DNA of 64,000 nucleotides from contig PBLQ01000004.1 in NCBI GenBank assembly GCA_002721815.1, forward strand, positions 39,316 through 103,315. The letters run 5' to 3'. The notes under the pieces were generated by a model. The model was not told the origin of the DNA and searched no databases. It saw nothing but the letters and a program-made list of their open reading frames with translations. Shown piece by piece: positions 9,224-25,570 of the stretch. Origin of the DNA: Myxococcales bacterium. GTDB lineage: Bacteria > Myxococcota > UBA727 > GCA-2721815. Position 1 is the stretch's first letter. Every line of letters starts with the position of its first letter. A program made the translations under genes and the position numbers.

Positions 9224-10201
9224 ATGTCCGAAACAGTTTTACAAGTGAGGGATTTGGTTACCGCCTTTTCCACCGATCGCGGAACAGTCCGCCCGGTCAA
9301 TGGTATCTCTTTCGATGTGAAAAAGGGCCGAACATTGGCCATTGTGGGAGAATCGGGCTCGGGTAAAAGCGTTACATCGCTCTCGGTCATGCAACTCATC
9401 CCTGAAAACGGCCGGGTTGAACAAGGCGAAATCCTGTTTCGAGGGGAAGACCTGGCCGGGGCGAACAAGAGAAAAATGCAAGAACTTCGGGGCAACCGCA
9501 TGGCCATGATTTTCCAAGAGCCCATGACCGCCCTCAATCCTGTGTACACGGTCGGCGAGCAAATTGCCGAAGTGCTGCGATTGCATCAAAACCAGACACG
9601 TAAAGAAGCAGCCCAAAATGCCATTGGGATGCTGGAGAAGGTACACATTCCAGATCCGGCGGCCCGCGCGGCCTGTTACCCACATGAACTCTCTGGCGGC
9701 ATGCGCCAAAGGGTGATGATCGCCATGTCCTTGGCGTGCAACCCCCAACTTCTAATTGCCGATGAGCCCACCACCGCTTTGGATGTGACCATTCAGGCTC
9801 AAGTCCTTCGTCTCATGCGCAACCTGCAAGAGGAGTTGGGTACTGCGATAATTTTTATCACACACGATTTGGGGGTGGTGGCTGAAGTAGCTGACGATGT
9901 GGCAGTCATGTATTGCGGTAACATTGTGGAGCAAGGCACGGTGTACGAGGTGTTTGAAAACCCTCAGCACCCTTATACGAAAGGGCTCATGAACTCTCTG
10001 CCCAAAATGAGTGATGACAAAGCCCGACCTCTAGAAGCCATCAAGGGCATGGTCCCCAGTTTGTTTGACTTGCCCAAAGGATGTCGTTTTACCACACGCT
10101 GTGAACACGTCATGGATGTCTGCGACACCATGCCTGGGTTGTTGAAAATTGGTGAGACCCACGCGGCCGCATGCCACCTCGTCCGCCAGGAGGTATCATG
10201 A
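9224..10201 (+). CDS. oppD: Oligopeptide/dipeptide ABC transporter ATPase, OppD/DppD type
   Basis: This is one of the two ATPases of a peptide importer, 325 residues from ATG 9224, with an AGGGGTGA ribosome-binding site. An upstream in-frame TTG (9167) lacks such a site. It has Walker A GESGSGKS, signature [13 protein letters not shown], Walker [13 protein letters not shown] and H-loop FITHD. The C-terminal region has the Cys-containing oligopeptide-transporter segment ([15 protein letters not shown]), which in this family can hold an iron-sulfur cluster. The stop overlaps the oppF start by ATGA. It is the first gene of the opp operon that runs on to the Mla-like genes. Confidence 0.95.
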
Positions 10202-11202
10202 CGTACATTTTGGAACTCAAAAACCTCACCAAGTACTTCCCGGTGATGGGGGGTGTTTTTCGTCGAGAGGTGGGTCGGGTTTACGCCGTAAACGACGTTA
10301 CATTATCTGTAAAAAAAGGTGAAACCTTAGGGATTGTGGGTGAGTCGGGGTGTGGCAAAAGTACGTTGGGCCGGGCATTGATTCGCCTGTATGAGCCAAG
10401 CAGTGGCCAGGTCATTTTTGACGGTGAGGACTTTACGGCTCTTTCCCAAAAGGAATTAAAAGAGCGACGCAAGCGCATCCAAATGATCTTTCAAGACCCT
10501 TACGCTTCGTTGAATCCGAGGATGTCTATTGAAAAAATTCTGAGCGAACCTTTCGAACTCCACGATGTGGGCACGAAAGAAGAGCGGCAAGTTTGGGTGC
10601 GTGAACTTCTAGAAACGGTGGGGCTTCCCGCTGAAGCAGCTCAACGCTACCCGCATGAATTTTCAGGGGGCCAGCGTCAACGGGTGGGGATTGCACGAGC
10701 ACTGGCGTTGCGACCCGATCTCATTATTTGTGATGAAGCGGTATCGGCCTTGGATGTTTCAATTCAGTCGCAGGTGCTCAACTTGTTGGTACAGCTACAA
10801 AAAGAACGAGGTTTAACCTATTTGTTCATTTCACACGATCTGTCGGTGGTGAAATATATTTCAGACCGTGTGGCCGTGATGTACCTGGGCAAGGTGGTCG
10901 AAACAGCCGACGCTGCCGCGTTGTACGATCAGCCTACTCACCCGTATACCCAGGCTTTGTTGCAATCGTTACCGGTGCCCGATCCACGTAAGCGAAAAGA
11001 ATTCGTTCCATTGCAGGGCGACGTACCTTCGCCGCGGAATCCGCCATCAGGGTGCTTTTTTCACCCACGATGTCCCAAGGCCATGGACCGCTGTAAGGAT
11101 GAAGAGCCCCTGTTGCAGATCATCTCTGCCGAAAAAGACCACCAAGTGGCCTGCCATTTGGTCGATGGCGCCACCCATGGAACAGCGGAGGCCCAATCAT
11201 GA
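10198..11202 (+). CDS. oppF: Oligopeptide/dipeptide ABC transporter ATPase, OppF/DppF type
   Basis: This is the second importer ATPase, 334 residues from ATG 10198, which overlaps the oppD stop by four bases and has AGGAGG just upstream. It has Walker A GESGCGKST, signature FSGGQRQRVGIARAL, Walker B LIICDEAVSALD (Ala in place of the usual Pro after Glu) and H-loop FISHDLSVVKY. The typical C-terminal CFFHPRCPKAMDRC segment follows. OppD and OppF normally form a heterodimer on the cytoplasmic side of OppBC. Its stop overlaps the lipoprotein gene oppA by ATGA. Confidence 0.95.
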   Translation: MTYILELKNLTKYFPVMGGVFRREVGRVYAVNDVTLSVKKGETLGIVGESGCGKSTLGRALIRLYEPSSGQVIFDGEDFTALSQKELKERRKRIQMIFQDPYASLNPRMSIEKILSEPFELHDVGTKEERQVWVRELLETVGLPAEAAQRYPHEFSGGQRQRVGIARALALRPDLIICDEAVSALDVSIQSQVLNLLVQLQKERGLTYLFISHDLSVVKYISDRVAVMYLGKVVETADAAALYDQPTHPYTQALLQSLPVPDPRKRKEFVPLQGDVPSPRNPPSGCFFHPRCPKAMDRCKDEEPLLQIISAEKDHQVACHLVDGATHGTAEAQS

Positions 11203-13058
11203 CAAAGAGTCGCTGCTTGTCTCTTTTCTTTCTGTTTCTATGTTTGTCTGGCTGCACCAAAAGCATGACCGAGTACAATCCGGATGGCAGCATCAAAAAA
11301 ATCTTTCACTATTTTAGATCAGCGGCACATAAGAGTCTCGACCCCCAAAAACAATTTGATTCGGCATCGGCAGATATTATCAATGTGGTTTACGACACTT
11401 TGTTGAGCTACCACTATTTGAAACGACCCTACCAACTAACGCCCAACTTACTGACCCAAATGCCTTCTTTATCTGAAGATGGACTGACCTATTCTTTTGA
11501 ATTACGACAAGACGTCTTCTTTATGGATGATCCTTGTTTTGAGGGGGGTAAAGGCCGGCAGCTCACAGTCGACGACGTCATATATACCCTCAAGCGTTTT
11601 GCGGATTACAATGTGAACACCATATCCTATGGCACCTTGATGCAAGGTTATATCAAAGGGATGGATGTGTTTCGTGCAGAAACAAAAAAATTAGGAGAGA
11701 GTAAAACCGATTACGCAAAACTCGAGATTGAAGGCATAAAAAAGACCGGTCAATTTGAATTTGAAATGACCTTGACCCAACCCATTCCCATGGCATTGCT
11801 GCCATTCGCCGCCTCTCAATTAGCGATTGTGGCGCGCGAGGCTGTGATGCATTACGGAATCGACTTTAAACACCACCCGGTGGGCTCAGGGCCGTTTTAT
11901 ATCTCCCAATATTCCCGACGCGGTGAAATGCGGCTGGCGAAGAACCCCAAATATCATCTGACGTACCCTTTAGAGGGAGACGTCGGCGATGCTGAAAATG
12001 GATACTTGAAAGATGCGGGCAAACGACTGCCTCTGATCGATGAGGTACGGCTGCCTTTGATCGAAGAAAGCCAGCCTCGAATGCTGAAGTTTCGACGTGG
12101 TCGTCTCGACTGGGTGGGGGTAGACAAAGAGAACTTCACCAAAATGGCCATTAAAGAAGGAGACACTTTTCGGCTGATCCCTGAGCTTGCAGGATCGTTT
12201 CGACACTACTATGCGCCCTACCTCTACAGCGGGTACTGGTCCTTTAATATGAAAGATCCTGTGTTGGGTAGTGAATGTAAGCCCGAGCAAGGAGACCCTT
12301 CCGATCCGGAGAGTGAGTGTGCCAAGCACCAAGCGCGAACCAAGGCCCTACGACAGGCCATGGCCTATGCATTCGACATGGAAACCTACATCGACAAAAT
12401 GCGCAATGGTCGCGGTTTGAAGTCGAATACCATCGTTCCCATCCCCATTGCGGGAAGTGAGAAAGACACGGGGGCGAAGTGGTATCCTTTTGATCTGAAA
12501 AAAGCCAAAGAGAAGTTGGTCGAAGCGGGCTACCCAGGTGGTGAAGGACTTCCGCCCATTAAAGTTGAGTACGCAGGCACATCCAGTGGATCCCAGCAAG
12601 ATGGTGAGTTTTTTCGGCGGGCATTTGCGGCCATCGGTATTGAGCTGCAGCCCCAGTACCAAACCTTTTCTGCTTATTTGAAAAAAACGGACTCGGGGAA
12701 TTTTCAACTCGCCAGTTCTGCATGGTCTGCTGATTACCCGGATGCTGAAAACTTCTATCAATTGCTTTATGGTCCCAACGGTCCACCCGGGCCGAACCAT
12801 GGCGCTTACGCCAATCCAAGGTACGACGCGCTTTACTTGAAGAGCAAGTACATGTCCAACGGGCCCGAACGCTACCAAGTGTTCAAGGAAATGGCGGATA
12901 TTCTTAAAGACGAGGTCCCATTTCTATTAACGGTATCGCCTATTTCTTTTGGGCTTTATCAAAATTGGCTGCTGAACATGAAACGGCACATGATGGTGGA
13001 TTCACCTTACCAATACATCAACATTGACACCGAAATGAAAAAGAAAGGACTAAAGTAA
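11199..13058 (+). CDS. oppA: Peptide ABC transporter substrate-binding lipoprotein (SBP family 5)
   Basis: This is the substrate receptor of the importer, 619 residues. The N-terminal signal ends in a lipobox, LCLSGC, so the mature protein is probably a lipid-anchored periplasmic protein. The body is an SBP_bac_5 fold, with LDPQKQFDSASADIINVVYDTL near the start and the WSADYPDAENF motif near the end. The sequence contains several insertions with paired Cys and acidic residues (for example CKPEQGDPSDPESEC), which is unusual but compatible with the family. Placement between the ATPases and permeases is a common opp order. Ligand (peptide, opine, nickel or other) is not decidable from sequence alone. 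Confidence 0.9.
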   Translation: MTKSRCLSLFFLFLCLSGCTKSMTEYNPDGSIKKIFHYFRSAAHKSLDPQKQFDSASADIINVVYDTLLSYHYLKRPYQLTPNLLTQMPSLSEDGLTYSFELRQDVFFMDDPCFEGGKGRQLTVDDVIYTLKRFADYNVNTISYGTLMQGYIKGMDVFRAETKKLGESKTDYAKLEIEGIKKTGQFEFEMTLTQPIPMALLPFAASQLAIVAREAVMHYGIDFKHHPVGSGPFYISQYSRRGEMRLAKNPKYHLTYPLEGDVGDAENGYLKDAGKRLPLIDEVRLPLIEESQPRMLKFRRGRLDWVGVDKENFTKMAIKEGDTFRLIPELAGSFRHYYAPYLYSGYWSFNMKDPVLGSECKPEQGDPSDPESECAKHQARTKALRQAMAYAFDMETYIDKMRNGRGLKSNTIVPIPIAGSEKDTGAKWYPFDLKKAKEKLVEAGYPGGEGLPPIKVEYAGTSSGSQQDGEFFRRAFAAIGIELQPQYQTFSAYLKKTDSGNFQLASSAWSADYPDAENFYQLLYGPNGPPGPNHGAYANPRYDALYLKSKYMSNGPERYQVFKEMADILKDEVPFLLTVSPISFGLYQNWLLNMKRHMMVDSPYQYINIDTEMKKKGLK

Positions 13059-13991
13059 ATGCTGGCATACATTATTCGCCGTGTCCTTTATATGATCCCC
13101 ACCATTTTGGCCGTAGCCCTGTTGGTCTTTTTACTATTTCACGAGGTGGGTGAAGACCCTGTTCGGGTGGCGCTCGGTCCCCACGCCTCGCCCGAAAAAA
13201 TCGCTGCACTCGAGGCCAAATGGGGCTTGGACCAGCCCATGCACGTTCAGTTTGGTGCGTTTCTCAAGGAGATCGCCACCATGGATTTTGGGCGTTCTTA
13301 TGTGACGGACGAAAAACTGAGCGGTTTGTTTAAAGAAGGTGCTTGGGTATCTCTATCGTTGACTGCGCCCCCATTTATTTTGGGTTTACTTCTGAACGTG
13401 GCTTTGTCATTGCTCATCGCTTTTTATCGAGGTTCCTGGTTTGATAAATTGTCTACCGCTGTTTTTATTATTTCCATGAGCATTTCCTACCTGGTGTACA
13501 TTATTGGATTCCAATACCTTTTTGCGTTTCAGTTGGATTGGTTCCCCATCAATGGGTACTCGTGGGGAGTGGCGAGCATCCCCTATCTCACGTTGCCCAT
13601 TTTGATCATGTTGTTTGTTCGAGCCGGCCCAGAAATTCGTTTGTACCGAACGGTTTTCCTCGATGAGACCAGTGAAGACTATGTGCGAACGGCGCGGGCG
13701 AAAGGGCTGTCCGAAAATAAAATCCTGTTCAAACATATTTTGAAAAACGCCATGATTCCAATTTTGACCAATACGGTTACCGCCATTCCATTTTTGGTTT
13801 TGGGAGCGTTTTTAATGGAGCGTTTTTTTTCGTTGCCCGGTGTGGGTGATCTCATGATCACGGCCATCAATACCGGTGATTTTCCGGTTTTAAAGGGTTT
13901 ATGTATGTTTATCGCCATTGGGTACTCGGTATTCATGCTGTTGACAGATATTCTTTACGCCTACGTAGACCCACGGGTAAAATTGGGTTAG
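13059..13991 (+). CDS. oppB: Peptide ABC transporter permease, OppB/DppB type
   Basis: This is an inner-membrane permease of 310 residues, starting one base after the oppA stop. The N-terminal MLAYIIRRVLYMIPTILAV helix is followed by the family block EKIAALEAKWGLDQPM. The EAA loop that docks the ATPase, DYVRTARAKGLSENKILFKH, is well conserved. About six transmembrane segments are visible. It pairs with OppC, 15 bases downstream. Confidence 0.94.
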   Translation: MLAYIIRRVLYMIPTILAVALLVFLLFHEVGEDPVRVALGPHASPEKIAALEAKWGLDQPMHVQFGAFLKEIATMDFGRSYVTDEKLSGLFKEGAWVSLSLTAPPFILGLLLNVALSLLIAFYRGSWFDKLSTAVFIISMSISYLVYIIGFQYLFAFQLDWFPINGYSWGVASIPYLTLPILIMLFVRAGPEIRLYRTVFLDETSEDYVRTARAKGLSENKILFKHILKNAMIPILTNTVTAIPFLVLGAFLMERFFSLPGVGDLMITAINTGDFPVLKGLCMFIAIGYSVFMLLTDILYAYVDPRVKLG

Positions 13992-14006
13992 GCCCAGGAG
14001 TGAAAA

Positions 14007-14870
14007 ATGACCACAAATGTGCAAAATAATTCTCTTGGTCGACGTGCTTGGCGAAAGCTTCAGACCCAAAAATTCACTATGGCCTGTTTTGCGGTCATCG
14101 TGCTGTACTTGTTTGTAGCCCTCTTGGGAGCGTTGGACTTTTTACCGGATCATCGGGTCGAAGTGGGCGAAAGTTACACCAAGCCCACCTGGAGTTTGGC
14201 AGGCATCTTGGGAACCGATTTTTTCGGCTATTCGGTCTTGTATAAAATTTTGGCGGGCACCGAAACGGCTATGGCCATTGGCTTTTTGACCACGGCCATT
14301 GTGATTCCTCTGGGCGTCATTATCGGTGCGATCGCAGGGTACTACGGCGGTTTTATTGACGACGCTGTGGTTTTTCTTTGCACGGTGGTGAACTCGGTCC
14401 CCTATATTTTGATGGTGATCGCCATTGCTTATCTGCTGGGCAAAGGGCTTGAATCCATGTGTGTGGCCATGGGGGTTGTGGGCTGGGTGCCATTGTCGCG
14501 TTTAATCCGCGCGGAGTTCATGAAACACAAAGAACGGGAATACGTGTTGGCTTCTCGTTTATTGGGCGCCAATGACTTTTTATTGATCTTTAAACACATT
14601 TTGCCCAACGTTTTTCATTTGGCCATCATTACAGCATCGCTCACGGTGTTGAGCGCTATTAAGTCGGAAGTGATTTTAACCTATTTGGGGGTTGGGATTA
14701 CCGACGGCTCATCATGGGGTTCCATGATTCAAGCAGCTGAAAAAGAATTGGTGACGGGTGTTTGGTGGCCTTTGATGGGTGTGGTTTTGGCCATGTTTTT
14801 AATTATTTATGCTCTCAATGTGGCGGGCGACGCCTTGCGCGATGCCTTGGACCCCAAACTGGTAGATTAA
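14007..14870 (+). CDS. oppC: Peptide ABC transporter permease, OppC/DppC type
   Basis: This is the second permease, 287 residues. It has the N-terminal OppC_N-like helix, the GTDFFGYSVLYKILAG segment typical of OppC/DppC, and an EAA loop, REYVLASRLLGANDFLLIFKH. The C-terminus NVAGDALRDALDPKL is the standard OppC ending. A GGCCCAGGAG ribosome-binding site lies upstream. The next gene, an MlaE-type permease, starts one base after its stop codon, so the operon does not end with the opp set. Confidence 0.94.
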   Translation: MTTNVQNNSLGRRAWRKLQTQKFTMACFAVIVLYLFVALLGALDFLPDHRVEVGESYTKPTWSLAGILGTDFFGYSVLYKILAGTETAMAIGFLTTAIVIPLGVIIGAIAGYYGGFIDDAVVFLCTVVNSVPYILMVIAIAYLLGKGLESMCVAMGVVGWVPLSRLIRAEFMKHKEREYVLASRLLGANDFLLIFKHILPNVFHLAIITASLTVLSAIKSEVILTYLGVGITDGSSWGSMIQAAEKELVTGVWWPLMGVVLAMFLIIYALNVAGDALRDALDPKLVD

Positions 14871-14871
14871 T

Positions 14872-15606
14872 ATGAATACCTTGACCATGATCACCGCAAC
14901 CACACGTCGGGCCTTGAGTTTGAAGGGGTCGGCCAAAAAAGTGGTGTGGGACGTGGCGCGCAAACAAATCTTTTTCACCGGCGTGGACGCCATTCCTTTG
15001 ATCGCGTTTTTAGGTGCTGCGGTGGGCATTTTGGTCATTGTGCAGTCCGTGTCTTACTTACCGCAGGTGGGCGCAGCGCGCTTCATGGGCGATCTTTTTG
15101 TGTTGCTGATCCTGAGAGAATTGGGCCCCATTTTGGTGGCCTTCGTGGTAATTGCGCGTTCGGGAACGGCCATTGCTGCCGAGTTGGGAACCATGACCGT
15201 ACGCGGTGAAATGGTAGGCATGATGGGGGTGGGTGTTGACCCGCTCACCTACATGGTTTGGCCACGCATGGTGGGGGCGGTCACGGCGGTGATGGGCTTA
15301 ACCGTCATATTTATTAGTGTGGCATTTGTGGCGGGTTTTGGTATGGCGGCGTTCATGCACATTTCGGCTTTTGGTTATTTGTTCGACACATTGTTTCGCT
15401 CTATGGCGTTGGGGGACATTGCCATGGCTCTGGGTAAAACGGCCTTGATGGCCGTAGCTGTCGCAGGGGTCGCAGCTCGACAAGGTCTTTCTGCTGAAGG
15501 GGACAGTACCGATGTGCCGCGACGTACTTTGGCTGCCGTGGTGAATTCATTCACGGCGGTGGTTGCCATTGAAGCCGTGGTGATGGTGGTCTGGTTATCA
15601 TTTTAA
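14872..15606 (+). CDS. mlaE: MlaE-type lipid ABC transporter permease
   Basis: This integral membrane protein has 244 residues and belongs to the MlaE/TrgB/YrbE permease family, which moves phospholipids or other hydrophobic compounds between membranes. Family features are the LRELGPILVAFVVIARSGTA block and the MTVRGEMVGMMGVGVDPL segment. About five membrane segments are present. MlaE normally works with an MlaF ATPase and an MCE-domain MlaD protein. Here an MlaF-like gene follows but is degraded in its motifs, and no MCE protein is seen in the window. It begins one base after oppC, so it is probably translated from the opp transcript. Confidence 0.88.
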   Translation: MNTLTMITATTRRALSLKGSAKKVVWDVARKQIFFTGVDAIPLIAFLGAAVGILVIVQSVSYLPQVGAARFMGDLFVLLILRELGPILVAFVVIARSGTAIAAELGTMTVRGEMVGMMGVGVDPLTYMVWPRMVGAVTAVMGLTVIFISVAFVAGFGMAAFMHISAFGYLFDTLFRSMALGDIAMALGKTALMAVAVAGVAARQGLSAEGDSTDVPRRTLAAVVNSFTAVVAIEAVVMVVWLSF

Positions 15607-15616
15607 GGATTGCAAC

Positions 15617-16267
15617 GTGAGTGTATGGTGCCGGTTAGACAATTTAACGGTTAAAGAACTGGGACGAGGCCATGTTCACGAGCTTTCTTTAGAGGTTAAC
15701 GCCGGCGAGCTGGTCTGTTTGCATGGGCCACCTGGCGTGGGCAAAAGCCTAGCCCTTCGAGCGTTGATGGGGTTTTGCGCTGAAGCCCAAGGGAAGATTT
15801 ACCTTCATGACGAAGACGTTTCTTCTTTGGACCACGATGAATTAATGCGGCTGCGACAAACCATTGGATACTCTTGTATTCACGCACCCCCTCTTTCGAA
15901 TCTGACGGTGCAACAAAATTTAGTGGTTCCTTTATGCATGAATGGAATGACCTTCGATGAGGCCAATGAGCGCGCTTCTGTGGTTTTAGAAGAGTTCGAG
16001 TTGTCAGAGAACGCACAACAACGCCTCACGGCCTTAACGGCTCAGAAAATACATTTGTTATCGGTGGCGCGATGCTTTGCCATGCCGGTAAATTATTACA
16101 TTTTGGCAGAGCCTTTTCGCGCCATGAGCTGGGCTCAAATCAAACTTACAGAGCAAGCCATTTACCGACGCGTAGAGGACAATAAAAGTATTTTGGTGTG
16201 TACCGATAACCGAAAATTTATTGAGCACGAAAAATGCCGAGTGGTAGAAATGCCAGTCGTCCCTTAA
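15617..16267 (+). CDS. Degenerate ABC ATPase, MlaF-like, lacking most catalytic motifs
   Basis: This 216-residue reading frame has the layout of an ABC ATPase, and its position after MlaE suggests the MlaF role. The Walker A GPPGVGKS (residues 37-44) is intact. The signature is replaced by LTALTAQ. The Walker B aspartate is Ala164 (ILAEPF), although the following Glu165 remains. The D-loop is gone, and the H-loop His position reads Thr-Asp (196-197). The frame has no stops or shifts, so it looks maintained rather than newly decaying. It starts at GTG 15617 with AAGGA 9 bases upstream. It may bind nucleotide without hydrolysing it, or act as a structural partner. Its stop shares TTAA (16264-16267) with the convergent gene. 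Confidence 0.75.
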   Translation: MSVWCRLDNLTVKELGRGHVHELSLEVNAGELVCLHGPPGVGKSLALRALMGFCAEAQGKIYLHDEDVSSLDHDELMRLRQTIGYSCIHAPPLSNLTVQQNLVVPLCMNGMTFDEANERASVVLEEFELSENAQQRLTALTAQKIHLLSVARCFAMPVNYYILAEPFRAMSWAQIKLTEQAIYRRVEDNKSILVCTDNRKFIEHEKCRVVEMPVVP

Positions 16268-16986: not shown

Positions 16987-18444
16987 ATGAAAACCATCCC
17001 TTCATTGATTGGCGGGCGCTGGATTGGCCCAGAGAACCGGTCGCAATTCGACAATTTCAATCCTGCTTTGGGCGTGCCTTACGCCAAGGTGGTGAAAAAC
17101 AGCATTGAAGACGTGGACGAGGCTGTTCAGTGTGCCAAAAAGGCGCTTCATGGTCCTTGGGGTCAAATGAGCCTGGGGGATCGGGTGGCCTTGCTTGAAA
17201 AAGTGGCCGACACCATCATGGAGCGTTTTGATGCGTTCTTGGCGGCCGAAATGGCGGACACCGGAAAGCCCATCTCCTTGGCCAGTCAGATCGATATTCC
17301 AAGAGGGGCCGCGAATTTCCGCATTTTTGCCAGAATGGCAGCCTCCATGGGTTCCGATTCCTTTTTTACCCACACCCCAGACGGCCAGGGTGCCGTGAAT
17401 TATGTGCAGCAAATGCCGGTGGGCGTGGTGGGGGTGATTTGTCCTTGGAATTTGCCCCTTTTATTGATGACATGGAAGGTTGCCCCTGCGTTGGCCATGG
17501 GGAACACCGTGATCGTGAAGCCCTCCGAAGAAACTCCCGCCACTGCCACCTTACTCGGGGAAGTGATGGAACAAGTGGGCGTGCCCGCAGGCGTGTACAA
17601 TGTGGTTCACGGGTTTGGACCTGAATGTGTGGGGGATGCTTTGGTGACCCACCCAGATGTGGCCGCCATTACCTTTACCGGCGAAAGCCGCACGGGGTCG
17701 GCCATTATGGCGCGTGCCGCTGCCCACATTAAGCCCCTTTCTTTTGAGTTGGGAGGGAAAAACCCGGCAGTGGTTTTTGGTGATGCTGATTTTGATAAAG
17801 CGCTCGAGGGGACCACGCGATCGGTGTTTTCCAATTGCGGTCAAGTTTGTTTGTGTTCTGAGCGTGTTTATGTTCACGAAAGTATCTTTGATCGTTTCGC
17901 AGAAGCACTCACCGAAAAAGCACGCGGGTTGGTGTTGGCCGATCCCCAATTAGAGACCACCTCCATGGGACCCCTTATTTCACAGGTGCACAGAGATAAG
18001 GTGCAGTCTTATTTCGATTTGGTGAAGCAAGAAGGTGGCACATTCCTTACGGGTGGTGTTACCGCGCAACCCCAGGGCTTTGAGAACGGTTTTTGGGTTG
18101 AACCCACCATTGCCACTGGCTTATCCGAAACGGCCCGGGTTCAAAAAGAAGAAATCTTTGGCCCCTTTTGCCATCTCACCCCGTTTAAAGAAGAAGAAGA
18201 AGTCATCCACATGGCCAACGACACCGAGTATGGGTTGGCGGCGGCCATTTGGACTGAAGATCTCAAAAGAGCACATCGCGTGGCCCAGTCGGTAGAGGCC
18301 GGCATGGTTTGGGTGAACACGTGGTTCCTGCGCGATTTGCGTACCCCTTTTGGCGGTGTCAAAAACAGTGGCATCGGTCGTGAAGGCGGGCGGCACTCTT
18401 TAGAGTTCTACAGCGAAAGTAAAACCATTTGTATCAAGATGTGA
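16987..18444 (+). CDS. 2-aminomuconate 6-semialdehyde dehydrogenase (ALDH family)
   Basis: This NAD-dependent aldehyde dehydrogenase has 485 residues. It has the general-base motif FELGGKNPAVV (Glu254) and the nucleophile segment NCGQVCLCSER (Cys288). The C-terminal PFGGVKNSGIGREGG is typical of 2-hydroxymuconic / 2-aminomuconic semialdehyde dehydrogenases. The neighbours (ACM-semialdehyde decarboxylase, 2-aminomuconate deaminase) point to 2-aminomuconate 6-semialdehyde as substrate, giving 2-aminomuconate. ATG 16987 is chosen because AAAGGA precedes it; an in-frame start at 16954 extends into the putative hairpin. It is the first gene of the operon. Confidence 0.88.
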   Translation: MKTIPSLIGGRWIGPENRSQFDNFNPALGVPYAKVVKNSIEDVDEAVQCAKKALHGPWGQMSLGDRVALLEKVADTIMERFDAFLAAEMADTGKPISLASQIDIPRGAANFRIFARMAASMGSDSFFTHTPDGQGAVNYVQQMPVGVVGVICPWNLPLLLMTWKVAPALAMGNTVIVKPSEETPATATLLGEVMEQVGVPAGVYNVVHGFGPECVGDALVTHPDVAAITFTGESRTGSAIMARAAAHIKPLSFELGGKNPAVVFGDADFDKALEGTTRSVFSNCGQVCLCSERVYVHESIFDRFAEALTEKARGLVLADPQLETTSMGPLISQVHRDKVQSYFDLVKQEGGTFLTGGVTAQPQGFENGFWVEPTIATGLSETARVQKEEIFGPFCHLTPFKEEEEVIHMANDTEYGLAAAIWTEDLKRAHRVAQSVEAGMVWVNTWFLRDLRTPFGGVKNSGIGREGGRHSLEFYSESKTICIKM

Positions 18445-18447
18445 TGT

Positions 18448-18870
18448 ATGTCCACTGAAAGTATTATTTTAGAGAACAGAGCCGGGGCCTTGGCCCAGTA
18501 CCCCCACGCCAAACGGGTTGGGGATTTAATTTTTGTTTCTGGCGTTTCTTCGCGACGGCCTGACAACTCGCATGAAGGGGTGACGCAAAATGAAGACGGC
18601 ACGGTCACTTTAGACATCGCGGCACAAACCCGTGCGGTCATCCAAAATATTCAGGTGATTCTTCGGGCCGCCGGTGCCGACTTGGAGCATGTGGTGGACA
18701 TGACCACCTTCTTGGTGAACATGGAAGATTTCAAGGGATACAACCAAGTATATAATGAATTTTTCGAGGCGCAAAATGGGCCGTCTCGCACCACGGTGGC
18801 GGTGAAGCAATTGCCGCACCCTAATTTGTTGATCGAGATGAAAGCCATTGCACACTTGCCGAAAGCTTAG
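18448..18870 (+). CDS. 2-aminomuconate deaminase (RidA/YjgF family)
   Basis: This 140-residue protein is from the Rid family. The N-terminal VGDLIFVSGVSSRRPDNSHE, the central HVVDMTTFLVNMEDFKGYN and the C-terminal LPHPNLLIEMKAIA blocks match the 2-aminomuconate deaminase subgroup rather than housekeeping RidA. The enzyme hydrolyses 2-aminomuconate to 4-oxalocrotonate plus ammonia. It starts three bases after the dehydrogenase stop, and the next gene follows after 11 bases. Context in the ring-cleavage operon strongly supports the assignment. Confidence 0.88.
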   Translation: MSTESIILENRAGALAQYPHAKRVGDLIFVSGVSSRRPDNSHEGVTQNEDGTVTLDIAAQTRAVIQNIQVILRAAGADLEHVVDMTTFLVNMEDFKGYNQVYNEFFEAQNGPSRTTVAVKQLPHPNLLIEMKAIAHLPKA

Positions 18871-18881
18871 GGGAGGAAAAG

Positions 18882-19697
18882 TTGGACAACGAAAATATAT
18901 TACCTTTGGCCGAGATGCTCTGGAGTGCACAACAGTCAAAAGTGCCTTGCGAGCCCCTGACACAGCACAAAGAAGATCTGTCGGTGAGTGAAGCGTACGA
19001 CATTCAAATTCACAATATGCGCCAACGGTTCCGTCAGGGGCTTCATGGTCGCCCCGCCCGTTTGGTGGGACGAAAAATAGGCATTACCAGTAAAGCGGTA
19101 CAAAATTGGCTCAATGTGAGCGAACCTGATTTCGGATTTTTACTCGATGACATGATGGTGACCCACGGGGAGGTGGCCCCCATCCAGTTAATGCTCCAAC
19201 CGCGCGTGGAGGGCGAAATCGCTTTTGTTCTCAAGAAAGACCTTGAAGGACCCGGCGTGACGCCATTGGATGTGATTTCAGCCACCGACTATCTGCTGCC
19301 GGCCATTGAAATAATCGATTCGCGCATTACCGATTGGAAGATCAAATATGAAGACACCATCGCTGACAATGCTTCCAGCGGCTTTTTTGTTTTGGGCAAT
19401 CAGCCACGGGCCTTGAGCAAAGTAGATTTAGATTTGTGTGGTCTGTCGCTCTTGCAAAATGGCCGGGTGAAAAGCACTGGTGCAGGTTTGGCGTGTTTGG
19501 GCGATCCCATTCATGCGGTGGTATGGCTGGCCAACACATTGGGCAAGATGGGTGTCCGCATTAAGGCGGGCGAAGTAATTCTGTCGGGGGCGTTGGGCCC
19601 TGTGGTACCGGTGGCTCAAGGCGATCACATAGAGGTTCTCATTTCGGGCCTGGGCAGCGTGTCCTGTCGTTTTGACGAAGAGGAGTGGGCAAGATGA
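18882..19697 (+). CDS. 2-oxopent-4-enoate hydratase (FAH superfamily, DmpE/MhpD-like)
   Basis: This 271-residue hydratase adds water to 2-hydroxypenta-2,4-dienoate to give 4-hydroxy-2-oxovalerate. Family motifs are [14 protein letters not shown] near residue 65, the metal-binding EGEIAFVL, and [12 protein letters not shown]. The start is TTG 18882, favoured by the strong GGGGAGGAAAAG just before it; the next ATG (18918) would cut the conserved N-terminus. It is paralogous to the decarboxylase gene at 21644, as usual in these pathways, and the two enzymes often act as a complex. Its stop overlaps the next start by ATGA. Confidence 0.87.
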
Positions 19698-20632
19698 CCA
19701 CCAAAAAAATGGGATGTGCCATCATTGGTTCTGGAAATATTGGAACCGATTTGATGGTGAAAATACTCAAGCAAAGCCAGCACCTCGAGCTCTTGGCCAT
19801 GGTGGGCATTGATCCAAATTCTGACGGTTTGGCCCGGGCGTCGCGCATGGGCGTGTTCACCACCCACGAAGGTTTAGAGGGGCTGATGTCGGCGCCCTGC
19901 TATGAAAATATTCGTATCATTTTCGATGCAACCTCAGCGAAAGCTCACGTGGCCCATGCCAAAATGCTGGAAGGGGAAAGTCGTCATTTGATCGATATGA
20001 CCCCGGCAGCCATCGGTCCTTATGCGGTCCCCATTGCCAACCTAGAGACACATTTACAGGCCGAAAACGTCAACATGGTGACTTGTGGGGGCCAAGCCAC
20101 CATTCCTATCGTGTGGGCCATCAGCCAGCACACCAAGGTTCACTTGGCAGAGATCGTCGCATCGATCTCATCCAAAAGTGCCGGGCCGGGAACCCGGGCG
20201 AATATCGACGAGTTCACTGAAACCACCGCCAAAGGGCTCGAAGTGGTGGGCGGGGCCACCCATGGCAAGGCCATCATCGTACTCAATCCGGCGGAACCAC
20301 CCTTGATCATGCGCGATACGGTGCACATGTTGTGCGATTCTATGGAGCAAGAGGCCCTTACGGCCGCGGTCAAGGATGCAGTAATGCGTGTTTCAGAATA
20401 TGTACCCGGATACCGTTTGGTTCAGGAACCCGTTTTCGAAAGTTTTGAAGAAAACGGTTTGAGTCACCCCGATCATGGCACGCAAAAAGGCTTAAAGGTT
20501 TCTGTCTTTTTAGAGGTCGAAGGCGCAGGGCACTATTTGCCAAAATATGCGGGCAACCTCGACATCATGACCTCAGCGGCGTTGCAAATGGGTGAGCTGA
20601 AGGCACAACACCAACTAAAGGCAGGTGTTTGA
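19694..20632 (+). CDS. mhpF: Acetaldehyde dehydrogenase (acylating)
   Basis: This 312-residue enzyme converts acetaldehyde, NAD and CoA to acetyl-CoA. It has an N-terminal Rossmann motif, [10 protein letters not shown], and the active-site Cys in [11 protein letters not shown]. The [21 protein letters not shown] block is characteristic of DmpF/MhpF/BphJ. It normally forms a channelling complex with the 4-hydroxy-2-oxovalerate aldolase, whose gene starts one base after its stop. ATG 19694 is chosen over GTG 19685 because of the ATGA overlap with the hydratase. Confidence 0.95.
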
Positions 20633-20633
20633 G

Positions 20634-21647
20634 ATGAGTAAAAAGAAGGTCATTATTCAAGACGCCACACTCCGTGATGGCATGCATGCTTTGGGGCACC
20701 AGTACACCATCGAACATATGGTCACCATCGCGGAAAAGCTTGAAGAGGCAAAAGTGGATTTGATCGAAGTCAGCCATGGGGATGGTCTTAATGGTAACTC
20801 GTTCAATTATGGTTTTTCACGCCACAAAGAATCAGACTATTTGTTAGCCGTGAGAGAGGTCCTTGATCACGCCAAGTTGGCCGCGCTTTTATTACCCGGC
20901 ATTGGCACGGTTGAAGATATGAAGATGGCCAAAGATTGCGGGGTCCATACCATTCGCATTGCCACCCATTGCACCGAAGCGGATATTTCAAAACAACACA
21001 TCGAAACCGCGCGCCAAATGGGATTCGATGTGGTGGGCTTTTTAATGATGGCCCACCAAACTTCCACCAGCCAATTGGTGGAACAGGCCAAGCTCATGGA
21101 AAGCTACGGCGCTCACTGTGTGTACGTGGTGGATTCTGCGGGGGCTTTGTTGATGGATGAGACTGCCGAACGCATTCGAGCCTTCAAAGACAACTTGGGC
21201 GTCGAAGTGGGTTTTCACAACCACAACAACCTCGGGCTGGGTGTGGCTAATACCATTTTAGCCATTGAAAATGGCGCCGATCGCGTTGACGGTTCGGTGG
21301 CCGGCATGGGCGCGGGTGCGGGCAATTGCCCGTTAGAAGTCTTGATTGCGGTTTGTGATCGCATGGGTATTGAAACCGGCGTTGGCTTGTATCCGCTCAT
21401 GGATTGCGCAGACACGTTGGTCAGGCCTTTGCAGCAAAGACCCGTGCAAACCGATGGCAATGCATTGATGCTTGGTTTTGCCGGTGTGTATTCTTCATTT
21501 TTACTGCATACCGAAAAAGCGTCTCGACAATTTGGGGTGGACTCCCGGGATATTTTAATGGAATTAGGACGCCGCAAAATGGTGGGGGGCCAAGAAGACA
21601 TGATTGTCGATGTGGCCTTAGATCTTCAAAAAGGAACAAACCGATGA
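20634..21647 (+). CDS. mhpE: 4-hydroxy-2-oxovalerate aldolase
   Basis: This 337-residue metal-dependent aldolase of the HMGL-like family splits 4-hydroxy-2-oxovalerate to pyruvate and acetaldehyde. It has [15 protein letters not shown] at the N-terminus and the metal-binding [16 protein letters not shown] segment. The DmpG-type communication domain follows at the C-terminus. It passes acetaldehyde to the dehydrogenase encoded just upstream. The ATG at 20634 follows the previous stop by one base, and the stop overlaps the next start by ATGA. Confidence 0.96.
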
Positions 21648-22426
21648 GCTTAAGCACAGAACAAAAAAACAGCTTTGCGTCACAATTGCACGCCGCCGCT
21701 CGCAGCGGACATCAGGTCCCCATGCTGACAGCTGAAACCTCTTTTTCGATGGTGGAAGCTTACGACATTCAAGAAGCGTTAATTCAAAAACGCATCGATG
21801 AGGGTGCACCTTTGGTGGGCATGAAAATGGGCCTCACTTCCTTAGCAAAGATGGAGCAAATGGGGGTGGACTCACCCATCTATGGGCATCTAACTTCCGA
21901 TATGCTTTTGGATGACGGGGGCACTTTAGATTTATCTGTTTATGGGCACCCCCGTGTAGAGCCCGAAGTTGCATTTATCATGGCCGAAGACATCAAGGGG
22001 CCCACCACGTCTGCGCAAGTGGCCTTAGCGGTTAAAGGGGTTTGTGCGGCCTTAGAAGTGATCGATTCCAGGTACGAAAATTTTAAGTTTACCCTAAATG
22101 ATGTGGTTGCCGATAACGCTTCGTCAACCCGTTTTGTCTTGGGCACCGAGTTGCATCCAGTGGACAGCGTGCCACTGGGTAATTTAGGAATGGTTTTAGA
22201 AGTGGACGGAGAGCCGGCACAAATCGGTTCGTCGGCAGCCATCTTTGAGCACCCATTGAAATCTTTGGCGGCATTGGTGAACATGTTGGCCACGCGTGAT
22301 CGCGGTTTGAAGGCCGGCCAAATTGTGTTGGCCGGCGGTGCCACCGCAGCCGTAGCACTGAGCGATAACCAGAGAGTGAGGGTCCGAGTTCAAGGACTCG
22401 GTGATGCGAGCTTTTTCACTAAATGA
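21644..22426 (+). CDS. 4-oxalocrotonate (2-oxo-3-hexenedioate) decarboxylase (DmpH-like)
   Basis: This 260-residue protein is from the same FAH superfamily as the hydratase at 18882. The [21 protein letters not shown] segment and [15 protein letters not shown] match the decarboxylase branch (DmpH/XylI). It removes CO2 from 4-oxalocrotonate to give 2-oxopent-4-enoate, which the hydratase uses. No 4-oxalocrotonate tautomerase is present, as expected when the deaminase product is already the keto form. Start ATG 21644 overlaps the aldolase stop and has AAGGA upstream; a longer in-frame opening into mhpE has no support. Confidence 0.87.
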
Positions 22427-22434
22427 GTTGAACC

Positions 22435-23448
22435 ATGAAGATTGATTTACACACCCATATTATACCTCCAGACATTCCCAACTATGCTAAAAAATTTGGG
22501 TATGGCGATTTCATCCATTTGGATCATGATCCCACAACTTGTACCGCCTGTATGATGAAGGGGCCCGAACGCTTTCGGGTGATTGAATCCAATTGTTGGG
22601 ATGTGGAAAAGCGGCTCGAAGAATGCAACAAAGATGGGGTAAGTGTGCAGGTGTTGTCCACCATTCCCGTGTTGTTCAATTACTGGGCGAAACCCGAACA
22701 CGCCAGCGAGACCTCCAAATACATTAACGATCATTTGGCACAAGTTGTGTCGGAGCACCCCACGCGGTTCATTGCCTTGGGCACAGTGCCGCTGCAGGAG
22801 ACGCAACTGGCCTGTTTTGAAATGGAACGTGCGGTCAAAAAACTAGGCATGCCTGGTATTGAGATCGGATCGAACGTGAATGGACGCAATTTAGACGATC
22901 CAGCGCTCGATGAGTTTTGGGCCACGGCTCAAGACCTAGGGGCTTCCATCTTTATTCATCCTTGGGACATGATGGCTCGGGACCGCATGAGCAAGTATTG
23001 GACCCCGTGGTTGGTGGGCATGATGGCGGAGACTGCTTTGGCCTACTGCTCTCTCACCATGGGTGGGGTGTTAGATAAATACCCAGACCTCAAAATCTGC
23101 TTCGCACACGGTGGCGGCTCCTTTCCGGCCACCATTGGTCGGATCGATCACGGATTTAATGTTCGTCCGGACTTGTGTCAAACCGACAGTCAAAGCCTGC
23201 CCTCTTCATGGTTGAAAAAAATCTATATTGATTCTTTGGTTCACGATGAGGATGCCCTTAAGTTGTTGATCAAAAAAGTGGGTGTGCAACGTATTGCGCT
23301 GGGGACGGATTACCCATTTCCGTTGGGAGAGCACCGACCAGGCGCATTGATTGAAAAAATGAGCCATCTCACGCAAGATCAACGTTCCTGGCTCAATTAT
23401 AAATCAGCTCTGGCCTTCTTAGGCTTGGACGAAAAGCATTATTTGTAG
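22435..23448 (+). CDS. 2-amino-3-carboxymuconate 6-semialdehyde decarboxylase (ACMSD)
   Basis: This 337-residue zinc amidohydrolase-family decarboxylase removes CO2 from the ring-opened product of 3-hydroxyanthranilate and diverts it from quinolinate/NAD synthesis to degradation. Zinc and catalytic residues can be matched to known ACMSD: His6 and His8 (DLHTH), His175 (FIHPWD), His225 (FAHGGG) and Asp292 (LGTDYPFPLGEHRPG). Spacing agrees with the Pseudomonas enzyme. It lies 8 bases after the decarboxylase and links the kynurenine branch to the aminomuconate branch of the operon. Confidence 0.94.
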   Translation: MKIDLHTHIIPPDIPNYAKKFGYGDFIHLDHDPTTCTACMMKGPERFRVIESNCWDVEKRLEECNKDGVSVQVLSTIPVLFNYWAKPEHASETSKYINDHLAQVVSEHPTRFIALGTVPLQETQLACFEMERAVKKLGMPGIEIGSNVNGRNLDDPALDEFWATAQDLGASIFIHPWDMMARDRMSKYWTPWLVGMMAETALAYCSLTMGGVLDKYPDLKICFAHGGGSFPATIGRIDHGFNVRPDLCQTDSQSLPSSWLKKIYIDSLVHDEDALKLLIKKVGVQRIALGTDYPFPLGEHRPGALIEKMSHLTQDQRSWLNYKSALAFLGLDEKHYL

Positions 23449-23457
23449 GTGAATGTA

Positions 23458-24294
23458 ATGTGGGTGCGTTTTCAATTTGAAAACAATTGGATCATGGCAG
23501 ATACGAGTAAGCCCATCTCGTTGGCGCACCAAATTGTTCCCAACGAAGAACCGACGGTGTCTGCATTTTATTTGTCCGCGGCCACTTCCACCCCCGTCGA
23601 AGCGGGTGAGTTTGTCGGGGACACGCGCCGGGGTGGTTCGGTGAATTGCGAGGTCCTTCACATTGCCCCCCATGGAAACGGAACACACACCGAAGGCGTT
23701 GGTCACATTACCGACGCACGAATCCCAGTGACCAATGCTTTGCCAGCACCTTTGATGCTCACCATGCTTTTGGATGTAGCGCCAGTGCGGCTGAAAGACG
23801 TGAAAGAGACTTATTCTGGACAACACGACGGAGAGGATTGGGTGATCACTGCGCGGGCGTTGGAAAATGCTTGGCAAAAAAGCAACACCTTTGACTTGTC
23901 TCCTCCTGCTTTTGTCATTCGCGCTTGCAAAGACTTTTTTAGGGATGAGGCTGCGTTATTTAGTGGTCGAAATCCGCCCTACTTCACTGATCAGGCCATG
24001 GGTTGGATTCGAGCCATGGGCGCCTCTCATTTGCTCACCGATATCCCCAGTGTGGATCGCGAAGATGATGGGGGAGGGGTGTGTGCCCATCGCATTTTTT
24101 GGGAACTCGAAAATAAAACCGATGAGCCCACAGGCGAAGCCAAAGCACGCACCATTACAGAGCTGTGCAACATTCCCAAAGAGTTGTCAGAAGGAATTTA
24201 TTTATTGAACCTGCAATTACCACCGGTGAAAAGTGATGCCGTGCCTTCTTGGCCCATGCTTTACGAAGCCCAATTGGTAGAAAACGACGGATAA
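23458..24294 (+). CDS. kynB: Cyclase-family metal hydrolase, probable kynurenine formamidase
   Basis: This protein has 278 residues from ATG 23458 (AGGTGA upstream); a GTG at 23449 is possible. It belongs to the cyclase / KynB superfamily. The signature is HGNGTHTEGVGH, against HxGTHxDxPxH in typical KynB, so it has one extra residue between the first two His and Glu for Asp. The position next to kynureninase argues for hydrolysis of N-formylkynurenine, but the enzyme is of a divergent branch and could act on another N-formyl or lactone substrate. No signal peptide is seen. Confidence 0.7.
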   Translation: MWVRFQFENNWIMADTSKPISLAHQIVPNEEPTVSAFYLSAATSTPVEAGEFVGDTRRGGSVNCEVLHIAPHGNGTHTEGVGHITDARIPVTNALPAPLMLTMLLDVAPVRLKDVKETYSGQHDGEDWVITARALENAWQKSNTFDLSPPAFVIRACKDFFRDEAALFSGRNPPYFTDQAMGWIRAMGASHLLTDIPSVDREDDGGGVCAHRIFWELENKTDEPTGEAKARTITELCNIPKELSEGIYLLNLQLPPVKSDAVPSWPMLYEAQLVENDG

Positions 24295-24298
24295 ACCC

Positions 24299-25570
24299 AT
24301 GGTTGAATTTGCCAACACCCGCTCTTACGCTGAAACTCTCGACGATACAGACCCGCTGCAGTCGTTTCGAAAGCGTTTTATTTTCCCAACGCAAAAAGAT
24401 GGCACGCCTTACCGCTATTTCTGCGGCAACTCTTTAGGGTTACAACCTCAAAAAGCCAAAGACGCGCTTTGGGTCGAATTGGAAGATTGGGCAAAGTACG
24501 GGGTTGAAGGCCATTTTGATGGGCGCAATCCTTGGTATGGTTATCACGAACGGTTTGCTGAACTGCTAATGCCGGTGGTGGGGGCCAAGCACCCGCATGA
24601 AGTGGTGGCCATGAATGGGCTAACAGTGAACTTACACCTCTTGCTGGTTTCTTTTTATCGCCCCACACCAGAGCGCTATAAAATTGTCATCGAGGAGAAT
24701 GCTTTCCCATCTGATCGCTATGCTGTGGCTTCCCAGGCCCGTTGTCATGGGCTCGATCCTGACAAAGCGGTGGTGATCTTAAAGCCAAGAGAAGGCGAGC
24801 ATACGCTTCGCACCGAAGACATTGAAAAGTATTTAGAAGAAGAGGGTGATTCGGTGGCCACGGTGATGCTCGGGGGTGTCAATTATTATACGGGTCAATT
24901 TTACGATCTCGAACGTATTACGCAGGCCGCCCATCGGGCAGGCGCCATGGCTGGGTTCGACTTGGCCCACGCGGCGGGTAATGTACTTTTGGAGCTGCAT
25001 GACTGGCAGGTAGATTTTGCTTGCTGGTGCTCCTACAAGTATCTCAATTCCGGTCCGGGCAGTGTGGCAGGTGCTTTTGTTCATGATAACCACCGCAACA
25101 AACCCGACATGCCAAGGTTTGAAGGCTGGTGGGGCACAGACCCGCAAAGCCGATTCAAGATGGAGCATTTTGAGTTACAAGATGGTGCGCCGGGTTGGCA
25201 ACTTTCAAACGCGCCGGTTTTGGCCATGGCGGTGCATTACGAAGCACTCAAAGTTTGGAATGAGGCGGGCCGGGAAAACCTCAGAGACAAATCCATCAAG
25301 CTCACGGCTTATCTGGAGCACTTGTTGTCACAAATTGAGAATGCACCTTTTGAAATTATCACGCCCAAAGATCCTGAGCGACGTGGTTGTCAATTGTCTT
25401 TGAAATTTAAAGAAAACGCCAAGCACGTGAATGAGCGCATGTCCGCCGAAGGGTTGATCACTGATTTCCGTTCCCCCGATGTGATTCGGGTGGCACCGGT
25501 ACCACTGTACAACTCTTACGAAGATGTTTGGGTTTTTGCTGACATTGTGAAGCGTGCATTTGAAGACTAG
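24299..25570 (+). CDS. kynU: Kynureninase
   Basis: This PLP enzyme of 423 residues cleaves kynurenine or 3-hydroxykynurenine to anthranilate or 3-hydroxyanthranilate plus alanine. Features are YFCGNSLGLQP near the N-terminus, the AGFDLAHAAGNV PLP-phosphate region, and the Schiff-base lysine in CWCSYKYLNSGPG (Lys247). The C-terminal domain has RGCQLSLKF and FRSPDVIRVAPVPLYNSYEDV. It is the last metabolic gene of the operon. The following reading frame overlaps its 3' end by 17 bases. Confidence 0.96.
   Translation: MVEFANTRSYAETLDDTDPLQSFRKRFIFPTQKDGTPYRYFCGNSLGLQPQKAKDALWVELEDWAKYGVEGHFDGRNPWYGYHERFAELLMPVVGAKHPHEVVAMNGLTVNLHLLLVSFYRPTPERYKIVIEENAFPSDRYAVASQARCHGLDPDKAVVILKPREGEHTLRTEDIEKYLEEEGDSVATVMLGGVNYYTGQFYDLERITQAAHRAGAMAGFDLAHAAGNVLLELHDWQVDFACWCSYKYLNSGPGSVAGAFVHDNHRNKPDMPRFEGWWGTDPQSRFKMEHFELQDGAPGWQLSNAPVLAMAVHYEALKVWNEAGRENLRDKSIKLTAYLEHLLSQIENAPFEIITPKDPERRGCQLSLKFKENAKHVNERMSAEGLITDFRSPDVIRVAPVPLYNSYEDVWVFADIVKRAFED

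Follow-up and report, generated by a model that had tools for sequence, protein, structure and literature searches.

A gene for a degenerate ABC nucleotide-binding domain (NBD), which follows an MlaE-type permease gene in the genome of a Myxococcales bacterium (GenBank assembly GCA_002721815.1), probably encodes a non-hydrolysing structural subunit of an MCE (Mla-type) lipid transporter, with the MCE protein and a DUF6918 protein of the system encoded on another contig (C70). The two genes lie within the stretch of 64,000 nucleotides of contig PBLQ01000004.1 that was analysed here (the window) and would represent the inner-membrane half of the transporter.

The genes upstream of this pair (Table 1) form a complete Opp/Dpp-type importer, with a binding protein, two permeases and two ATPases in five genes (9224-14870; Pfam), whereas mlaE and the eroded NBD gene belong to other families (Pfam). 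The gaps between oppB, oppC, mlaE and the ATPase-like gene are 15, 1 and 10 bases and all four reading frames are intact, as the first-pass annotation of this DNA had described. Judging from this spacing, co-transcription of the four genes is plausible; a consensus scan for promoter- and terminator-like sites gave no excess over shuffled sequence. Genes for MlaB (STAS), MlaC or MlaA were not seen adjoining mlaE and the eroded NBD gene in the neighbourhood of the locus. Further along the window (16990-25570) there are genes for 2-hydroxymuconic semialdehyde dehydrogenase, hydratase/decarboxylase, acetaldehyde dehydrogenase, 4-hydroxy-2-oxovalerate aldolase and kynureninase, likely a tryptophan/kynurenine meta-cleavage cluster beside the peptide importer.

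Table 1. Genes of the peptide importer and of the adjoining MlaE-NBD pair, in window positions
Gene	Position	Strand	Remarks
oppD	9224-10201	+	own ATPase of the peptide importer; ABC motifs intact
oppF	10198-11202	+	own ATPase of the peptide importer; ABC motifs intact
oppA-like binding protein	11199-13058	+	part of the peptide importer
oppB	13059-13991	+	Pfam BPD_transp_1; outside the lipid system
oppC	14007-14870	+	Pfam BPD_transp_1; stop one base before the mlaE start
mlaE	14872-15606	+	MCE-transporter permease of the 'LFTG' clade, 244 aa; Pfam MlaE 1.2e-47
eroded ABC NBD	15617-16267	+	pseudo-ATPase in MlaF position, 216 aa, GTG start; Pfam ABC_tran 2e-17

The tight spacing after oppC invites the idea that the mlaE-NBD pair is an accessory of the peptide importer that borrows OppD/OppF, and two such options, a shared use of OppD/OppF and a lipid-peptide uptake machine, had been raised in the first-pass annotation. 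Neither found support. Among the loci fetched from other genomes none has oppB or oppC adjoining mlaE, and the position of mlaE after oppC, which the first-pass annotation had proposed to look for in related genomes, is so far peculiar to the window's genome. Moreover, OppD and OppF have their motifs intact in their own operon, MlaE is of another family than the Opp permeases, and in relatives this MlaE goes with MCE proteins. An Opp-linked machine is therefore hardly credible.

At the protein level, direct reading shows that the only catalytic ABC motif kept by the NBD is Walker A (GPPGVGKS, residues 37-44), with the Q-loop, signature, Walker B Asp-Glu and H-loop lost. Specifically, LTAQK (140-144) occupies the place of the LSGGQ signature, the Walker B Asp-Glu has become Ala164-Glu165 (the catalytic glutamate survives), the D-loop region reads AMSW and the H-loop His is replaced by Asp197. 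These losses, the retained Walker A and the intact frame had all been claimed before and are confirmed; the replacement of the Q-loop Gln by His89 was missing from the earlier list. Because the signature, the Walker B Asp and the H-loop His are gone, a homodimer of the window protein contains no complete ATP site, and such a homodimer should not hydrolyse ATP. A second, complementary NBD gene was not found beside mlaE in the window, and the corresponding loci of the two genomes with close orthologues (G003 and G006, see below) have one NBD each. The fold is nevertheless predicted to be complete: the AlphaFold2 model of the window NBD has a pLDDT of 95.9 and a TM-score of 0.84-0.87 against MlaF 6xgz, and that of a clade member from Kiritimatiellae with none of five motifs left is likewise a complete NBD (pLDDT 94.8). 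Both models match solved NBDs, with the MlaF chains 6xgz and 6xbd among the structures matched.

The permease itself belongs to the MlaE family (its Pfam match is above cut-off, and it matches MlaE structures in the PDB down to 5e-19), and the window's genome (G000) holds seven MlaE-family and five MCE matches. Close orthologues of the window MlaE were found in only two of the 195 genomes of the phylum that were searched (G003 and G006, 51-52% identity), both of the same order as the window's genome, and in both the ATPase orthologue is eroded with its frame intact; that of G003 has lost Walker A too. The gene order in G006 (JACOUT010000004.1) is mlaE, eroded ATPase, MCE, DUF6918, whereas in G003 mlaE stands alone on VGSZ01000124.1 and the eroded ATPase and MCE genes lie together on another contig. 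In the window's genome an MCE and DUF6918 gene pair is found on C70, and this MCE protein is 33-37% identical to those of G003 and G006 over nearly the whole length, with no match at E 1e-4 to the other four MCE proteins of its own genome. A single gene set is split at different points in the three genomes, which explains why the MCE gene is missing at the window locus. By orthology in these draft assemblies, the MCE partner of the window mlaE appears to have been split off to C70 and not lost. The first-pass statement that no MCE protein is nearby holds for the window's contig, where no MCE gene was found and all five MCE matches of the genome lie elsewhere, but misses the orthologous gene on C70. 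The DUF6918 gene (PF21893) lies 3′ of the orthologous MCE gene in both G000 and G006 (L051 6425-6877 and L044 4664-5119; 52% identical), and its product is possibly part of the lipid system.

Beyond these close relatives, the window MlaE falls inside a clade (SH-aLRT 100) that spans several phyla, named here as in the GenBank record titles, with clade-specific residues F35-T36 and P216 and the usual gene order mlaE-ATPase-MCE. A scan of named genomes with the MlaE trio gave 80 loci, mostly with mlaE, ATPase and MCE in a row, and the MCE gene is downstream in 74 of 79 clade loci. Next comes an ORF with a lipobox in 49 of the 69 clade loci with enough sequence, and TPR repeats were found in five of six such lipoproteins tested; in G000 and G006 the DUF6918 gene takes this place. 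A lipoprotein of about 300 residues is the fourth gene of the cluster, 3′ of MCE, in L104, L132, L133, L158, L170 and L160, with TPR in all but L160; as a guess, it could be an outer-membrane partner.

Erosion of the ATPase recurs throughout this clade. Under a strict five-motif score, the 79 members are distributed as 32 with no motif, 16 with one, 25 with two, four with three, two with four and none with all five, while 26 of 27 canonical MlaE partners used as controls score five; Walker A is retained in 32 of the 79. A larger tree sample drew on MlaE sequences that resemble that of the window or those of two less eroded members, and took in a second sampling of two additional groups. For this tree any signature with S at position 2 and G at position 4 was accepted, and near-duplicates as well as a few odd rows were dropped. 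Here the clade of 99 comprises 63 dead (at most two of five catalytic motifs), 24 partial and 12 active-like ATPases; given the way the sample was drawn, these fractions do not estimate population frequencies. Outside the clade, the 23 controls on the same MlaE tree comprise 22 active-like, one partial and no dead. The dead state requires at least eight changes on the tree, at least three of them forced by well supported branches. Motif loss is graded and repeated, not a single event. The check proposed in the first-pass annotation, to look for the eroded form beside MlaE in related genomes, had a positive outcome: the ATPase of both closest relatives is eroded, and erosion recurs across phyla.

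Several other readings of this pattern were discarded. The assumption that every clade member is eroded was refuted by the active-like and partial members of the second sample. Sequencing error or assembly decay was rejected as a cause, since records whose titles name a chromosome (L104, L132, L164) show the same erosion, as do members from different phyla, and an alignment artefact was rejected because the canonical Mla ATPases of the same genomes have their motifs intact.

The existence of partial and active-like members, together with the Walker A kept in the window NBD and in part of the clade, could also mean that the NBD retains a slow or unusual ATPase activity, or acts as a switch that binds ATP, through Walker A and Glu165 with a non-standard signature. 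However, the signature, Walker B Asp, Q-loop and H-loop are lost together in the window NBD, the G003 orthologue lacks Walker A as well, and the largest score class has no motif at all, so that this explanation is distinctly unlikely.

Selection on the ATPase-like gene was estimated in relatives. As distant pairs are saturated, non-overlapping close pairs were used instead of an all-against-all comparison of dN/dS. In 19 such pairs omega is 0.07-0.36 with all bootstrap upper limits below 1 (NG86 estimates with bootstrap, some with dS above 1, the window gene being outside the set), and four of these pairs, with no motif left, are likewise under purifying selection; MlaE has lower omega than the ATPase-like gene in the same pairs. 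Purifying selection, named in the first-pass annotation as a mark of a functional subunit, was thus found on eroded relatives of the window copy. The best conserved columns of the eroded members (G52, G59, N95, N101 and R152) all lie outside the catalytic residues, and Asn95, at a position mostly occupied by Ser in canonical partners, is shared by 77 of the 79 clade members. In E. coli, contact between MlaE and MlaF is mediated by the MlaE coupling helix between TM2 and TM3 (PMC7790496), and from general ABC anatomy N95 and N101 may be expected to touch this helix.

These figures also bear on the possibility that the ATPase is a pseudogene in progress in the window's genome. Many catalytic residues are lost and the selection figures come from relatives, yet the frame is intact in the window, both orthologues are eroded and still in frame, selection is purifying clade-wide, and a confident, complete fold is predicted. 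A decaying gene is accordingly very improbable. The earlier proposal of a functional non-hydrolysing subunit is borne out as regards conserved erosion and selection in relatives, while the lack of hydrolysis itself can only be called probable.

A different question is whether the motor is provided from elsewhere in the cell. At least one further MlaE was found in 24 of the 25 genomes that carry the clade system, the exception having a near-intact clade ATPase. An ATPase accompanies 25 of the further MlaE loci that were fetched, with signature and Walker B intact in all and the H-loop pattern failing in one; at four more loci no ATPase was found in the sequence examined. As the further Mla ATPases of the same genomes are canonical, motif loss goes with this type of locus. 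In the window's genome, canonical Mla-type ATPases are encoded on contigs C2, C25 and C37. The main rival to a structural NBD is that a canonical MlaF of such a system acts in trans, either replacing the eroded subunit as a homodimer or pairing with it in a heterodimer; the frequent company of another MlaE, usually with a canonical ATPase, would fit, as would the separately encoded ATPase MceG of mycobacterial Mce systems (PMC9947336). Most diderms have a canonical Mla system anyway, though, which makes this co-occurrence weak evidence, and retention of the eroded gene beside mlaE under purifying selection indicates that it has not simply been replaced. Furthermore, if a member with none of the five motifs formed a heterodimer, neither composite site would be intact, since one would lack the signature and the other Walker A/B. 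A motor in trans is, on this evidence, unlikely.

Some of these other systems have unusual layouts of their own. C25 (approximately 24.7-27.6 kb; L046 4691-7597) carries an ATPase-MlaE-MlaE-ATPase cluster, with similar ones in L067 and L084, whose degenerate sites are complementary (NBD1 has LSGGM but a Walker B of DN, NBD2 has LTPGQ with Walker B and H-loop intact); its motifs suggest a heterodimeric MlaE transporter in which one ATP site is complete, in contrast to the window pair. C37 (L045 5741-8855) has two tandem MlaE genes, possibly for a heterodimeric permease, with one canonical ATPase and one MCE gene, and on C2 (L050 4740-6816) an MCE gene comes after the gene of a canonical Mla-type ATPase, while nothing on that contig matches MlaE. 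In L151 (10022 and 17815) a canonical MlaE-ATPase pair shares a contig with an eroded clade system, at a distance of about 8 kb.

Under the favoured reading of a structural, non-hydrolysing NBD, the pseudo-NBD would keep the ABC fold and the conserved stretch after the Q-loop with which it is expected to grip the MlaE coupling helix, and, from the cytoplasmic side, would keep the two MlaE subunits together and determine the conformation of their dimer. Because Walker A is kept in the window member, binding of ATP without turnover could serve as a switch. The presumed lipid substrate would either follow a gradient passively through MlaE and the MCE ring or be moved by a force that does not come from this NBD; since some clade members are active-like, the system as such is compatible with use of ATP. 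More broadly, there is about an even chance that in one cross-phylum branch of MCE transporters the NBD has repeatedly become a non-catalytic scaffold, with MlaE and MCE proteins moving lipids between the bacterial membranes without ATP hydrolysis by their own NBD, and on sequence grounds the lipid transporters of the 'LFTG' branch may need no ATP hydrolysis.

What drives MCE lipid transport, and in which direction it runs, are unsettled matters in the field. With the gene kept under selection from active-looking NBDs down to NBDs without a P-loop, these MlaE systems form a natural series in which the structural role of the NBD can be told apart from hydrolysis, and the need for hydrolysis becomes directly testable. 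The series also cautions that counts of ATP-driven transporters come out too high where annotation relies on the ABC fold alone. In a broad phylogenomic study of Mla, MlaF was found by synteny and its annotations were noted as uncertain (PMC10665443), and a search of the open-access literature returned no paper on a degenerate MlaF.

Among known systems, E. coli MlaFEDB (PDB 6XBD; PMC7790496) likewise has an MlaE permease with a coupling helix, an NBD in the MlaF position and an MCE partner (MlaD), but its MlaF motifs are intact, whereas in the window five sites of the NBD are lost, the MCE gene lies elsewhere in the genome and genes for MlaB, MlaC or MlaA are not adjacent. The minimal MlaEFD of Veillonella parvula (PMC10665443) has three genes for MlaE, ATPase and a long MCE protein, as do G006 and most clade loci, although its MlaE and MlaF are described as closely similar to those of model diderms, while the clade MlaE is distinct and its NBD often dead. 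Mycobacterial Mce systems with MceG also have parts of one system at separate loci (PMC9947336, PMC9882608); there it is the ATPase that is encoded apart, here it is the MCE protein, with the eroded NBD remaining beside mlaE. In heterodimeric ABC transporters with one degenerate site a motif-degenerate NBD is functionally retained too, but their second NBD completes one site, and no partner NBD adjoins the window pair. Finally, PqiABC and LetAB (PMC10897342) are lipid systems with MCE proteins for which no ABC ATPase subunit is known, so that there is some precedent for MCE transport that lacks an ABC motor; PqiA and LetA are not MlaE and have no NBD, whereas here the NBD is kept but catalytically eroded.
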